Source: Campylobacteraceae bacterium (GTDB lineage Bacteria > Campylobacterota > Campylobacteria > Campylobacterales > Arcobacteraceae). From it: a stretch of 64,000 bases of DNA. Location of the stretch: the NCBI GenBank assembly GCA_013373175.1, contig JABXII010000014.1:124001-188000 (forward strand). The letters run 5' to 3'. The translations under genes and the position numbers were made by a program. The first letter of the stretch is position 1. Every line of letters starts with the position of its first letter. This document shows positions 2,131 through 30,189 of this stretch, one piece after another. The notes beneath the pieces are model-generated. The model was not told where the DNA came from. It saw nothing but the letters and a program-made list of their open reading frames with translations, and did no database searches.

Positions 2131-2544
2131 ATGAAAGTAGTAACAGGTGTAGTTGGAAACGACATCCACGTTGTAGCAAACAGACTTATAGAACTTTCAC
2201 TGCAAGCTAGAGGCTTTGAAGTATTTAACTTAGGTGTAAATACATACTTAGAAGAGTTTATTGATGCAGTGGTAGAAACTAATGCAGATATTCTTCTAAT
2301 CTCTTCATTAAATGGAGAAGCTGAAGGTTGGTGTAGAGAAGTTAAAATCCTAAAAGCAAAGTATGGAAATCTTCTTGATAATGTAGTATTCATGATTGGT
2401 GGTAATCTTGTAGTTGGTACAGGAGATGCTTCTGATATTGTTCCTAGATTCAAAAACTATGGATTTGATTTAGTATTCCACCAAGTTGACTTAAGTACTG
2501 GATTAGATGAATTGGAAAAATTCATGGAGGAAAGAGATAAATGA
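2131..2544 (+). CDS. glmS: Glutamate mutase (methylaspartate mutase) sigma subunit, B12-binding
   Basis: A 137-residue cobalamin-binding subunit of glutamate mutase, which with the epsilon subunit interconverts L-glutamate and (2S,3S)-3-methylaspartate. The B12 signature D-x-H-x-x-G appears as D11-I-H13-V-V-A16: the cobalt-ligating His is kept, but the usual Gly is Ala. The later SSLNGE and IGGNLVVG stretches match the nucleotide-tail pocket. ATG 2131 is preferred over an upstream TTG (2095) because AGGTAA precedes it and the protein then begins like family members. A -10-like TAAAAT sits at 2087-2092. The gene overlaps the next by four bases (ATGA). Confidence 0.9.
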   Translation: MKVVTGVVGNDIHVVANRLIELSLQARGFEVFNLGVNTYLEEFIDAVVETNADILLISSLNGEAEGWCREVKILKAKYGNLLDNVVFMIGGNLVVGTGDASDIVPRFKNYGFDLVFHQVDLSTGLDELEKFMEERDK

Positions 2545-3905
2545 GTTTATTACAAGAAGAAAGAAATATAATATTAAACAACGAACACGTTGATAATTTT
2601 GATTTTGCAGAAGTTGAAGATTTTGTAAAAAATGCTTCTAAAGACCTATTTATATCTTACAACTTTAAGACAAAAAATAAGATGCTTGTACAACCCCGTG
2701 GTGGTTTTCCAACATATGACAAAATGTTTGCGCTTTATGAGTTTTTTGATAAAGCAGATGTGGATGTATTACCTTGTACTATTGATTCAAATACAAGATT
2801 AAACGACTATGCAACTGCAAAAAAGATGCTAAGACTTAGTGAAGAAAATGAAGTTGATATGTTAAATGGTTATCCTTTAGTAACCCATGGGTATAGAACA
2901 TCAAGAAAGATGATGACTCACTTTAACAAACCAATTTCACTAAGACATGGTACTCCTGATGCAAGACTTCTTATTGAAACAGCAATTGCTTCTGGTATTT
3001 TTGAAATTGAAGGTGGACCAATTACATATTTATTACCTTATTCTAAAAACTTTCCATTAGACAAGGCATTTCTTTATTGGAAATATGTAGAAAGAGTTTG
3101 TGCAGAATATTCAAAACTAAATGAACCAATCAACAGAGAATCATTTGGTCCCTTAACTGCAACACTTGTTCCTCCTTGTATAACAATTGTTATTCAACTA
3201 TTAGAGATGTTACTTGCTTTAGAAGAAGGAGTAAAATCATTCTCTGTATCTTTTTCTCAAACTGGTTCTATGAATCAAGACATTGTAATGGGTTCAGTTA
3301 TTAGAAAACTAGCTCGTCACTTCTCAGAAGAGATTGGTGTAACAGATGCAGATATACACTTAGTTTATCACCAATGGATGGGTGCATTCCCTATGGATCA
3401 AAACTATGCATCTCAACTTATAAGTATGAGTACAGTAATTGCTTCTATGGTTGGAGCAAATAAAATTATTACAAAAACAAAAGAAGAAGCGTCTGGAATT
3501 CCTACAAAAGAAGCAAATGCTGAAACTGTTGCAAACACACAATACATTTTAAGAATTTTAAATGGTTTACCAAATATTGTTGACGAACAAGAAGAAGAGA
3601 TTTTAACTGCTGAAGTTATGGCTATTATGGAAGCTGTATTCAATGACCCAGCAGATACATTATGGAGAAAAGTATTTAACTCAATCAAAAATGGAACTAT
3701 TGATGTACCATTTTCTCCTCATATTATCAACAATAACGAAATGATTACAGTAAGAGATAAAAATAAAAATATTAGAATAATAAAAAGAGGAAAAGTTCCA
3801 ATTCCAGATAGATGTTTTGAGTATGAAAAAAATCAATGTGATTTAAATAAAGATACAACATCTATTGTAAATGATATTATCCATGATATAGGAATTATGC
3901 AATGA
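2541..3905 (+). CDS. glmE: Glutamate mutase epsilon (catalytic) subunit
   Basis: A 454-residue TIM-barrel subunit that holds substrate above adenosylcobalamin. The substrate-contacting residues known from the Clostridium cochlearium enzyme are all found in register: Arg53 (QPRGGFP), Arg86 (SNTRLNDY), Arg135 (LRHGTPDAR), Glu157 (FEIEGGP) and Tyr167. This supports true glutamate mutase activity rather than a drifted paralogue. It overlaps its neighbours by four bases on each side, so S, E and L are a coupled operon. No methylaspartate ammonia-lyase gene occurs in the window, so the fermentative methylaspartate pathway is not shown. Confidence 0.92.
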   Translation: MSLLQEERNIILNNEHVDNFDFAEVEDFVKNASKDLFISYNFKTKNKMLVQPRGGFPTYDKMFALYEFFDKADVDVLPCTIDSNTRLNDYATAKKMLRLSEENEVDMLNGYPLVTHGYRTSRKMMTHFNKPISLRHGTPDARLLIETAIASGIFEIEGGPITYLLPYSKNFPLDKAFLYWKYVERVCAEYSKLNEPINRESFGPLTATLVPPCITIVIQLLEMLLALEEGVKSFSVSFSQTGSMNQDIVMGSVIRKLARHFSEEIGVTDADIHLVYHQWMGAFPMDQNYASQLISMSTVIASMVGANKIITKTKEEASGIPTKEANAETVANTQYILRILNGLPNIVDEQEEEILTAEVMAIMEAVFNDPADTLWRKVFNSIKNGTIDVPFSPHIINNNEMITVRDKNKNIRIIKRGKVPIPDRCFEYEKNQCDLNKDTTSIVNDIIHDIGIMQ

Positions 3906-5104
3906 GTTTAGCAAATAAAATGAAAGAAAATAAACTACTTATTGATGTAGGAAGTACATATTTTAAATTATGTACAAAAGATAATGTTCAACAACACTTT
4001 AGAGACTTTAACAAAGATATATATGATGATTTAACTTACAAATGTGCAGATATAATCAAAGAGTATAATAAAGAAGATATTCATATTTGTTCTTCTGCAA
4101 ATGGTGGATTAAGTACACTTATTATTGGAGTTACAAACTCTTTTTCTTTAAAGTATGCAACAAATATTGCGTTTAACTCTGGTATTAATATTATTGATAC
4201 AGTTTTATTTAGAGAGATAGAAAAAACTTCTATTCCAAGTGATTTAATTGATGTAGTAATAGTTGTCGGAGGAATTGATTCAGTTTCAAATATCTTTGAT
4301 GAAAGACTATTTAAATTTTTAGATGGTTTAAACTACTCAAATATAGTATATGTTGGAAGTGAAAATGATTCTGCATTTTTAAAAGAAAATATTAATAATC
4401 TTGTTGTTTTACCAAATATCATTAATGAAAAACTTCATGTTGAAGAAGAAAATCTAAAAGAGTATTTAACAAACCTTTATCAAGCAGATATTATGGGTAA
4501 AGAAGATATCAAACACCTATATGAGATAACTTCTAATCAGATTTTTTCAACTCCATATATTGTAAATAAAACTCTACCTATGATTGATTCAAAATTTAAA
4601 GTTGCTGATCCATATATCTTAATTGATATTGGTGGAGCAACTACGGATATACACTATTCTAAAGATTTAGTTGAAGAAAATATGGTTACAGAGAATGAGT
4701 ATGATAGACTTGTATTTAAAAAGCTTGGTGTTTATAAATCAAAAGAGTCTTTAATCTTTGCAGCAAAAAACAATGAGTTTGTTTATGAATTATTAGCTCA
4801 CTTAAAAGTTACAGAGAATATCTTTGAGGAATCAAGTGAAAAAGCAACTAGAATTTTAATGCAACTTGCTATCTTCTTAGTACTTTGCAAAGTGTCAGCT
4901 TATAGAAAAGCATATGTAAACCTAAAATTAAATGCTTTAAACTCAGTTGTTTTTACAGGTGGAATTACAAAAGTATTAAAACAAGAAGAAATAGAAGATA
5001 TAGTAACATTCTTCTATAAGAAAATATTAAATTCACAACATAATCCTACAATTGTAATGGATAACAATTATGATGTATGGACTCTTGGAATGTTAGAAAA
5101 GTAA
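3902..5104 (+). CDS. glmL: Glutamate mutase reactivating/accessory protein (GlmL/MutL type)
   Basis: A 400-residue ASKHA-fold ATPase of the GlmL/MutL family, distinct from the DNA mismatch-repair MutL. Phosphate-binding motifs are visible as LLIDVGSTYFKL near the N-terminus and ILIDIGGATTDIHYS mid-protein, with VVFTGGITKVL near the C-terminus. Such proteins are thought to exchange damaged cobalamin on the mutase. It overlaps the epsilon subunit gene by four bases and precedes the ligase by 10 bases, so co-expression is expected. Confidence 0.85.
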   Translation: MSLANKMKENKLLIDVGSTYFKLCTKDNVQQHFRDFNKDIYDDLTYKCADIIKEYNKEDIHICSSANGGLSTLIIGVTNSFSLKYATNIAFNSGINIIDTVLFREIEKTSIPSDLIDVVIVVGGIDSVSNIFDERLFKFLDGLNYSNIVYVGSENDSAFLKENINNLVVLPNIINEKLHVEEENLKEYLTNLYQADIMGKEDIKHLYEITSNQIFSTPYIVNKTLPMIDSKFKVADPYILIDIGGATTDIHYSKDLVEENMVTENEYDRLVFKKLGVYKSKESLIFAAKNNEFVYELLAHLKVTENIFEESSEKATRILMQLAIFLVLCKVSAYRKAYVNLKLNALNSVVFTGGITKVLKQEEIEDIVTFFYKKILNSQHNPTIVMDNNYDVWTLGMLEK

Positions 5105-5114
5105 AGGAAATACT

Positions 5115-6689
5115 ATGTCTATAAATTGTATTAGAACACTTATTGAAGATGCACAGGCGTCTCACCCAGAAAAAGTTGCTATAAAATTTAATGAAAAAGA
5201 GATAACTTATGAGGAGCTATTTACAAAAGTAAATCAAATAGCATTTTATCTAAGAGAACTAGATTTACCAAAAGGTAGTAGAATTGGTATTTACTCTACA
5301 AAAAGTATTGAACAAGTAATTGCCATACTTAGTATTTTATCTACTGATTATGTGCTTGTTCCTCTTACTAGACTTTTAAAGCCAGAACAAGTTGAATATA
5401 TAATAAAAGATTGTGATATTAAATGTATTATAACTGATAGATTAAAGCTTGAATCAATTGAAGAAATAAACTTTGATGGACATATTGTATCTTATGAGAC
5501 TACACATAAAGATATTGCTTCTTTTGAAGAGATTTTTAAATACTATAATAAACCATATACTTGTGAAATAAATGGGCATGACAATGCTGTTATTACATAC
5601 TCTTTTGGATTAACAGGAACTCCTAAAGGTATTGTAATCTCACATAGAAACTTAATTGATAGTGCAAGAGTGGTAAGTCAATACTTAGAATTAAAAGAAG
5701 ATGATATTATCTCAGGAACTTTAATTTTCAATCTGGATTATGGATTAAACCAAATTTTCTGTTCTTTATATAAAAGAGCTACTTTAGCTTTACATAGATT
5801 TATTCTTGCAGGTGATTTCTTTAATCACTTAATTAATGATGAAGTTACAGTTGTACCTTTAATGCCTATTAATATTTCATCTATGTTTGATGAAGATGAA
5901 CATAGACTTCCAAGTGCAGACTTACTTTCAAAAGTTAGAGTATTAACCTCTTCTGGTGGTAATGTTACACACAAGATGTTAAATGATTTAGATAAATATT
6001 TCCCTGATGCTAAGTTCTACTCAATGCATGGATTAACAGAAGCCTTTAGATCAACATATTTAGAACCATCTCAGATTTGGATTAGACCTAATTCTATTGG
6101 TAAAGCAATTCCTGATGTTGAACTATATGTTATCAATGAAGAAGGCAAAGAGTGTAAACCAAGAGAAGTTGGTGAACTTATTCATAGAGGTGGTTATATT
6201 TATAAAGGATACTGGAATGCACCTGTTGAAACCAGTGAGCGATTTAAATCAATTCAAATATTAAAAGATGTAATTAACTTAGAAGGACAACTAACAGATG
6301 AAATAGTTGTTGCAACAGGAGATTATGTTTACAAAGATGAAGAAGGTTATTTCTATTTTGTTTCAAGACATGATGATATGATTAAAACTAGAGGTTTTAG
6401 AGTAAGTCCATTTGAAATAGAATCAGTAGTAGCAAATAACTTACCACAAATAGACCAATGTGCAGTCTTCTCAATTGCTAATGAAGAGATTGAAGAAGAG
6501 ATAGTTATGGTATATAGTTCAAGAAGTGAAATTGTTTCAAAAGAGATCATCTTTGAATTAAAAAAACACTTAGCTTCATATATGATTCCAAATAAAATTA
6601 TTTATAAAAAATCACTACCTTTAATTCCAAGTGATAAAAGTAAAATAAATAAAGAAGAACTAAAACAAGAACTACTAAAAGACAACTAA
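5115..6689 (+). CDS. AMP-forming acyl/amino-acid adenylating enzyme in the glutamate mutase operon
   Basis: A 524-residue stand-alone member of the ANL superfamily (acyl-CoA ligases, NRPS adenylation domains). Motifs in order: an ATP loop YSFGLTGTPKG, divergent from the usual YTSGSTGxPKG; SMHGLTEAFRSTYL; ATGDYVYKDEEGYFYFVSRHDD; the hinge region KTRGFRVSPFEIE; and a C-terminal SDKSKINKEEL with the expected catalytic Lys. No carrier-protein or thioesterase domain is attached. It is separated by 10 bases from glmL, with AAGGAA before its ATG. The TEAFRSTYL region resembles exosortase-associated acyl ligases. The substrate is unknown; 3-methylaspartate or a derivative is a context-based guess. 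Confidence 0.82.
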   Translation: MSINCIRTLIEDAQASHPEKVAIKFNEKEITYEELFTKVNQIAFYLRELDLPKGSRIGIYSTKSIEQVIAILSILSTDYVLVPLTRLLKPEQVEYIIKDCDIKCIITDRLKLESIEEINFDGHIVSYETTHKDIASFEEIFKYYNKPYTCEINGHDNAVITYSFGLTGTPKGIVISHRNLIDSARVVSQYLELKEDDIISGTLIFNLDYGLNQIFCSLYKRATLALHRFILAGDFFNHLINDEVTVVPLMPINISSMFDEDEHRLPSADLLSKVRVLTSSGGNVTHKMLNDLDKYFPDAKFYSMHGLTEAFRSTYLEPSQIWIRPNSIGKAIPDVELYVINEEGKECKPREVGELIHRGGYIYKGYWNAPVETSERFKSIQILKDVINLEGQLTDEIVVATGDYVYKDEEGYFYFVSRHDDMIKTRGFRVSPFEIESVVANNLPQIDQCAVFSIANEEIEEEIVMVYSSRSEIVSKEIIFELKKHLASYMIPNKIIYKKSLPLIPSDKSKINKEELKQELLKDN

Positions 6690-6893: not shown

Positions 6894-7169
6894 ATGAAAA
6901 AAGTATTACTTCTTACGTCAATTCTTGCATGTGCAGCTTTTGCTAATCCATATGCAAAATGTGTTGGATGCCACGGAGCAAATGGGGAAAAGTCTGCAAT
7001 GGGAAAATCTAAAATTATCAAAGATATGACTAAAGCTGAATTCATTGCTGCAATGAAAGGTTATAAAGATGGTTCTTACGGTGGACCAATGAAAGGTTTA
7101 ATGAAAGCTCAAGCTGCTGGTCTTTCTGATGCTGATATTGAAGCTATCGCTAACAAAATCGCTAAATAA
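6894..7169 (+). CDS. Cytochrome c553-type monohaem cytochrome
   Basis: A 91-residue periplasmic electron carrier. A cleavable signal peptide (VLLLTSILACAAFA) is followed by one haem-binding CVGCH motif. The region GGPMKGLMKAQAAGLSDADIEAIA supplies the probable axial Met. Small class I cytochromes of this kind link the bc1 complex to terminal oxidases or periplasmic enzymes. A strong AAAAGGAACTCTT precedes the ATG, an FNR box lies upstream, and a terminator follows. A paralogue is encoded at 23587-23892. Confidence 0.9.
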   Translation: MKKVLLLTSILACAAFANPYAKCVGCHGANGEKSAMGKSKIIKDMTKAEFIAAMKGYKDGSYGGPMKGLMKAQAAGLSDADIEAIANKIAK

Positions 7170-29760: not shown

Positions 29761-29869
29761 TCAATAATTTTTTTATCTTTATAATACTTAAATCACCCTA
29801 CTTTATAGTAATAATATATTCATTTCTTCAAAATTATAGTTTATTGATTGTTTTTAATGTAAGAATAAT

Positions 29870-30189
29870 AAGGTACAACGGTAAGCTGGATTTTGTTTTT
29901 GACAATAATTTATCTAGTTGCTAAATTACTTAAGCAATCTTGCGAAGAACATAAACGTGAAGTTTATTACCAAGCTCTTCTTGCTGCTGGTTGGGTTTAC
30001 ATAGCCACTAAAATTACTTAAAGTGCTGGTGGGCTCTTACTCCACCCTTTCAGCCTTACCAATAAATTGGCGGTCTTCTCTCTGTTGCACTGTCCCTTAG
30101 GTTACCCTAGCCATTCTTTAAATGGAACCATACTTCACTGCAGCCCAGACTTTCCTCTTGAAGATTCAAGCTATTGTCTGTTGTACCTT
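29870..30189 (-). ncRNA. rnpB: RNase P RNA
   Basis: The 320-nt catalytic RNA that trims tRNA 5' leaders. The two ends pair as a perfect 10-bp P1 helix (AAGGTACAAC at the 5' end, GTTGTACCTT at the 3' end). Universally conserved segments are present in order on the minus strand: GAGGAAAGTCTGGGC (P4 5' half), CAACAGAGAGAAGACCGCC, AAGGGTGGAGTAAGAGCCCACC, and near the 3' end ACAAAATCCAGCTTA (P4 3' half). A -10-like TACTAT lies about seven bases before the 5' end. It is downstream of lolA on the same strand. It explains the only sizeable gap without protein genes. Confidence 0.96.

Follow-up and report, generated by a model that had tools for sequence, protein, structure and literature searches.

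Glutamate mutase is usually taken as a sign of amino acid fermentation or of precursor supply for antibiotics. In vicenistatin biosynthesis, the ANL-superfamily enzyme VinN adenylates 3-methylaspartate alongside the glutamate mutase VinH/VinI, so that the pairing of such a mutase with a 3-methylaspartate-adenylating ANL enzyme is already known (PMC11284099), and PacE has been proposed to activate the same amino acid as an adenylate (PMC10662134). Here, we analyzed an operon of glmS, glmE, glmL and the gene of a stand-alone ANL-superfamily ligase-like protein (hereafter the ligase) in a stretch of 64,000 nucleotides (contig C3:124001-188000; "the window") from an Arcobacteraceae-type Campylobacterota genome. 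The explanation that we favor, though with somewhat less than even confidence, is that this operon is the central part of a mobile 3-methylaspartate module that does not serve fermentation, with AMP-dependent acyl activation by the ligase. An earlier reading of the window (the original prediction) holds in part, i.e., for the mutase, its product, the absence of methylaspartase and a ligase that probably binds 3-methylaspartate, but its view that activation of 3-methylaspartate as an adenylate would be unusual does not stand in light of VinN and, as a proposal, PacE. Beyond its scope are an RraA-like partner protein, an aminotransferase partner in Gammaproteobacteria and the occurrence of the module outside Campylobacterota.

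GlmE aligns with the epsilon subunit of C. cochlearium glutamate mutase across 412 residues (1.9e-81), and none of the 18 active-site residues that we checked in the surroundings of substrate and cofactor varies among 126 relatives including the protein encoded in the window. These comprise Arg66, Arg100, Arg149, Glu171, Tyr177, Tyr181, Lys326 and Glu330 (C. cochlearium numbering), and the five residues previously singled out in GlmE (R53, R86, R135, E157 and Y167) are all present and share their invariance with 13 more. The clade is nevertheless distinct, with 42 diagnostic substitutions compared to four canonical GlmE sequences. In GlmS, the D, H, SSLNG and GGNL elements of the DxHxxG...SxL...GG B12 motif are kept, and the previously noted replacement of its Gly by Ala is a real, conservative and family-wide change (GNDIHVVA or GNDVHVVA in 120 of 121 GlmS). 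GlmL scores far under the cut-off of the GlmL equivalog model (76 versus 475 bits) and is therefore considered divergent. Judging from the invariant active-site residues of GlmE, GlmSE is likely a real glutamate mutase and 3-methylaspartate its likely product, in agreement with the original prediction.

The ligase shows an ANL fold with the A5, A7 and A8 residues present, and its best NCBIfam model is TIGR03098 ("exosortase A system-associated"), for which its 437.9 bits fall short of the required 592. Across residues 150-418, the best match among solved proteins by sequence is VinN (1.9e-23, with the next protein at ca. 1e-17), and the structure of VinN with 3-methylaspartate is tied for the top match by fold (Z 45.0, in a superfamily where such ties are broad) to an AlphaFold model of the ligase with a predicted local distance difference test score (pLDDT) of 84.7. 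In VinN, D230 contacts the amino group of the substrate while F231 and S299 face a shortened loop that carries K330 and R331 (PMC11253843). The substrate loop of the ligase is as short as that of VinN, and the counterparts of D230, F231, S299 and R331 are listed in Table 1 together with the other features of the locus. This VinN-like pocket makes the ligase a likely binder of 3-methylaspartate.

Table 1. Operon genes, ligase residues of interest and neighboring features, in positions of the window.
Feature	Position	Strand	Observations
glmS, B12-binding subunit of glutamate mutase, 137 aa	2131..2544	+	Motif GNDIHVVA; NF002612 7.3e-47, above cut-off; match to the glutamate mutase sigma subunit in PDB, 8.2e-22
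glmE, catalytic subunit of glutamate mutase, 454 aa	2541..3905	+	PF06368 6.6e-117; PDB 6H9E 1.9e-81
glmL, divergent GlmL/MutL-type accessory protein, 400 aa	3902..5104	+	MutL PF13941 1e-26
ANL-superfamily ligase-like protein, 524 aa	5115..6689	+	AMP-binding PF00501 3.5e-62 plus C-terminal domain; VinN-like pocket
Ligase A3/P-loop, YSFGLTGTPKG, residues 162-172	5598..5630	+	Divergent from YTSG(S/T)TGxPKG; F164 in 105/107 relatives
Ligase D208-Y209, counterpart of VinN D230-F231 (amino-group Asp and bulky neighbor)	5736..5741	+	Invariant in 107/107
Ligase S280, counterpart of VinN S299	5952..5954	+	Invariant in 107/107; by alignment
Ligase R312, counterpart of VinN R331, short substrate loop	6048..6050	+	Invariant in 107/107; ungapped alignment to VinN
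Ligase K510, A10 lysine position	6642..6644	+	Lys in the window's protein, relaxed in the family
Small cytochrome c gene	6894..7169		Directly downstream of the operon; present in tandem in several relatives
Bacterial RNase P class A RNA	29866..30189	-	RF00010, 253 bits; ordinary

The coupling of glmS to glmE and of glmE to glmL by four-base overlaps, followed by a gap of ten bases to the ligase gene, had been described before, and the open reading frames (ORFs), coordinates and domain families all agree with that description. Across Campylobacterota, PF06368 was detected in 58 of 397 sampled genomes, spread over six family groups, and the ligase was found in 14 of the 16 genomes of the genus. 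When the four-gene order was sought in other genomes, it was intact in 45 of 48 readable Campylobacterota loci, retained at 58-98% protein identity across the six family groups, and it recurred in around 30 marine gammaproteobacterial loci, a degree of conservation beyond that of a chance arrangement. Among loci on contigs of named genomes, 58 of 79 have the intact order, and the rest are often truncated at contig ends or affected by missed ORF calls. A GlmE scan of such contigs, many of which are metagenome bins with possibly wrong taxon labels, recovered Arcobacter, Aliarcobacter, Sulfurimonas, Sulfurospirillum, Sulfurovum and Hydrogenimonas among Campylobacterota and, at 80-88% GlmE identity, Neptuniibacter, Reinekea, Amphritea, Colwellia, Thalassotalea, Paraglaciecola, Vibrio, Halioglobus, Granulosicoccus and others. 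The proteins of Arcobacteraceae and Sulfurimonas are nearer to these Gammaproteobacteria than to Sulfurospirillum (ca. 72%), and the GlmE tree requires several changes of class label, which together make horizontal transfer of the module likely. As variations of the locus, we note an extra ORF of ca. 330-360 aa that separates glmE from glmL at two places in Campylobacterota (L089:8331-9410 and L204) as well as a NAD(P)H-hydrate epimerase/dehydratase-like gene that follows glmS-glmE-glmL in place of the ligase gene at L099:5530-9864.

In the mechanism that we propose, GlmS and GlmE with adenosylcobalamin would convert glutamate to (2S,3S)-3-methylaspartate while GlmL would maintain mutase activity. 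The ligase would then bind 3-methylaspartate in its VinN-like pocket, with Asp208 at the amino group and Arg312 near the second carboxylate, and catalyze an AMP-dependent acyl activation, perhaps in altered form. Given that no dedicated carrier or decarboxylase accompanies the operon, the acyl group might be passed to a small acceptor such as coenzyme A (CoA) or an amine or, alternatively, to AcpP. The equilibrium constant of glutamate mutase, 0.093 as quoted in PMC8307300, favors glutamate, and activation of the product would drain this equilibrium. An RraA-like aldolase/decarboxylase, joined in Gammaproteobacteria by an AspC-type aminotransferase, may act on the same or a derived dicarboxylate.

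Several observations weigh against this explanation. The lysine K330 of VinN corresponds to F311 of the ligase, with Phe in 106 of 107 relatives, and the P-loop Ser is replaced by Phe in 105 of them, with a mostly hydrophobic position 166; the ATP loop of the ligase reads YSFGLTGTPKG, as pointed out by the original prediction. At the A10 position, where class I adenylate-forming enzymes are reported to share a fully conserved lysine (PMC6122825), the same 107 relatives have K (61), Q (19), R (12), E (6), L (4), V (3) or S (2), with at least 16 changes on the tree, and 15 of them lack any Lys at positions 508-510. Furthermore, three Campylobacterota loci have the genes split or no ligase beside glmL, and an adjacent aminotransferase is limited to Gammaproteobacteria. 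Amino acid binding is thus strongly constrained whereas the ATP half-reaction looks relaxed, and conventional adenylation by the ligase is uncertain because of its divergent ATP loop and the relaxed A10 lysine.

An invariant ligand pocket combined with a relaxed A10 position and a near-invariant Phe in the P-loop could also be expected if the ligase were a non-enzymatic subunit or regulator of the mutase that binds 3-methylaspartate and a nucleotide, which would fit the strict coupling of its gene to glmL. We consider this unlikely, since all 107 relatives keep the AMP-site and A8 residues E309, D403, R418, K424 and G427 unchanged, beyond the needs of a pure amino acid binder. In addition, the key Gly and Pro of the P-loop are mostly kept: Ser/Thr163, Gly165 and Pro170 occupy the positions where mutations are most harmful (PMC8388817).

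AMP-dependent activation by the ligase is not the only conceivable fate of 3-methylaspartate. In tests of co-occurrence that covered chosen protein families, an RraA-like protein was encoded in 40 of 40 operon-bearing but only 6 of 40 operon-free genomes (Fisher 1.7e-16) and, inside one family, in 24 of 24 versus 6 of 21 (Fisher 1.6e-7), with neither value corrected for shared ancestry. In Campylobacterota, its gene is close to the operon at 32 of 49 loci, mostly divergent upstream, and is unlinked in the window's genome (contig C37), where the protein is 72% identical to a linked copy. Near rraA, 21 gammaproteobacterial-type loci have an AspC-type gene, almost always tail-to-tail, that encodes an aminotransferase with aspartate aminotransferases as nearest structures. 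The sequence [E/D]-x20-R-D, which we take to be the metal and pyruvate motif, is kept in all 60 scored RraA-like proteins of the module. Among relatives of RraA, HMG/CHA aldolases use substrates of the pyruvate type and also decarboxylate oxaloacetate (PMC5065237), and a "glutamate mutase pathway" that leads to 2-ketobutyrate goes back to Abramsky 1962 as cited in PMC7476758.

All of this would be compatible with a route from glutamate to 2-oxobutyrate in which the AspC-type enzyme makes 3-methyloxaloacetate and the RraA-like protein decarboxylates it, feeding isoleucine or propionyl-CoA synthesis, with the ligase as an accessory. We regard this as rather unlikely. The biosynthetic threonine dehydratase ilvA (TIGR01127) is encoded in 53 of 53 operon-bearing genomes tested and in 16 of 16 of the genus, so that there is no visible need for such a route and isoleucine supply was set aside as the reason for the operon, though the 2-oxobutyrate might be additional to that from threonine dehydratase. 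Moreover, the invariant ligase would be left without a job, and the third residue after RD is mostly Gln in the RraA-like proteins of the module but acidic in some other RraA-like proteins. In our favored explanation, the ligase is the constant partner of the mutase, and the RraA-like protein and aminotransferase suggest a possible second drain via 3-methyloxaloacetate to 2-oxobutyrate; the two drains may belong to one pathway or to two.

The presence of a true glutamate mutase, as predicted, would in principle also fit methylaspartate (mesaconate) fermentation with a methylaspartase encoded elsewhere. A genome-wide search for methylaspartase (PF07476) found none in the window's genome or the 57 other operon-bearing genomes, with only partial enolase-superfamily matches of ca. 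75-110 positions, and the idea of a copy elsewhere in the genome was rejected on this ground. Canonical clusters on plasmids, by comparison, place methylaspartase directly beside glmE. As originally suggested, fermentation therefore does not explain the operon, and we consider this alternative refuted barring a non-homologous methylaspartase. Across five plasmid GlmE neighborhoods, we found methylaspartase clusters or unrelated clusters and in no case this ligase, and the plasmid-borne ligase relatives that we examined lie in polysaccharide/exosortase-type clusters without a mutase. A Methylobacter plasmid (NZ_CP091425.1; L107:6847-12207) has another mutase-like cluster with an ATP-dependent activator of the aspartate beta-carboxyl group, composed of asnA and the genes of a B12-binding protein, an EamA transporter and two hypothetical proteins, of which one is GlmE-like, and a Roseibium plasmid (NZ_CP045635.1; L106:2639-10069) encodes side by side an adenylation-domain protein, an aromatic amino acid lyase, a long GlmE (664 aa) and an amino acid racemase.

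Given the VinN-like pocket and the acyl carrier protein (ACP) and pyridoxal phosphate (PLP) decarboxylase that accompany related exosortase-A ligases, the ligase might instead follow the logic of VinN, VinL and VinO in trans by loading an ACP for decarboxylation to 3-aminoisobutyryl-ACP. This alternative is largely disfavored and appears very improbable to us. No dedicated ACP was found in 12 ligase-bearing genomes, each of which encodes a single, AcpP-like PP-binding protein, and no VinO-type decarboxylase is shared among 30 operon-bearing genomes, where the superfamily members of relatives are LysA- and SpeA-sized. The only clear candidate of another size is encoded in the window's genome, with marginal matches in two more. 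This 390-aa DAPDC-like protein (contig C37) was rejected as a VinO-type decarboxylase acting in trans, being unique among 32 genomes with no clear counterpart in the other 31 and encoded beside radical SAM genes; at L011:5324-9793, consecutive genes encode two radical SAM proteins of the SPASM type, a protein with leucine-rich repeats and this DAPDC/FslC-like PLP decarboxylase. Two non-AcpP carriers in the window's genome were likewise set aside, as they were assigned to an aryl polyene cluster (L009 and L010, contig C21) with two ACPs, several ketosynthases and genes of the ammonia-lyase-like, acyltransferase and partial ANL types.

Judging by their sequences, genes that precede both the operon and the window include cobalamin biosynthesis-type genes and an uptake set of the btuB/btuCDF type, which would fit a requirement for adenosylcobalamin. 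No cobalamin riboswitch was detected by Rfam in the window or in the upstream locus of 18 kb.

In a broader perspective, it is possible but doubtful that we are looking at a widespread, horizontally shared B12-dependent pathway, undescribed as a gene set in the open-access literature searched, that would lead from glutamate via 3-methylaspartate and the combined action of a reprogrammed ANL-fold protein, RraA-like decarboxylase and aminotransferase to 2-oxobutyrate or a new 3-methylaspartate-derived metabolite. If true, this would reveal either the genes for the glutamate mutase route of 1962 or an ANL branch that is independent of the A10 lysine. A distinct glutamate mutase clade with fixed partners occurs regularly in free-living Campylobacterota and in marine Gammaproteobacteria, and its product, if found, would extend the metabolism of ecologically important bacteria by a B12-dependent pathway. 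The ANL protein would then test how far this family can leave standard ATP-dependent adenylation.

Compared to mesaconate-pathway operons (glmS, glmL, glmE and methylaspartase), the locus shares homologs of GlmS, GlmE and GlmL with all key mutase residues but differs by the gene order S-E-L, ca. 35% GlmE identity, a divergent GlmL and the lack of methylaspartase. For the 1962 route to 2-ketobutyrate and isoleucine, to the extent that it is cited, candidates for the mutase, aminotransferase and decarboxylase are all found in the gammaproteobacterial module, but that route requires no ANL protein and ilvA is present wherever tested here. The closest annotated ligase family, TIGR03098 of the exosortase A system, has an identical GLTEAFRSTYL core but only 31-35% identity to the ligase; its members retain the P-loop YTSGSTGKPKG and the A10 motif and have an ACP and a PLP decarboxylase (TIGR03099) as neighbors, whereas in our operon the P-loop and NGK motif are not retained and exosortase, ACP and decarboxylase are missing. 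Like the vicenistatin set of vinH/vinI and vinN, the operon combines a glutamate mutase with a stand-alone ANL enzyme whose pocket matches D230, F231 (as Tyr), S299, R331 and the short loop of VinN. Unlike that set, it has no dedicated ACP, VinO-type decarboxylase, VinM, VinK or polyketide synthase, and its ligase departs from VinN by Phe in place of K330 and by the relaxed P-loop and A10 position, while GlmL and RraA-like partners belong to the module described here.

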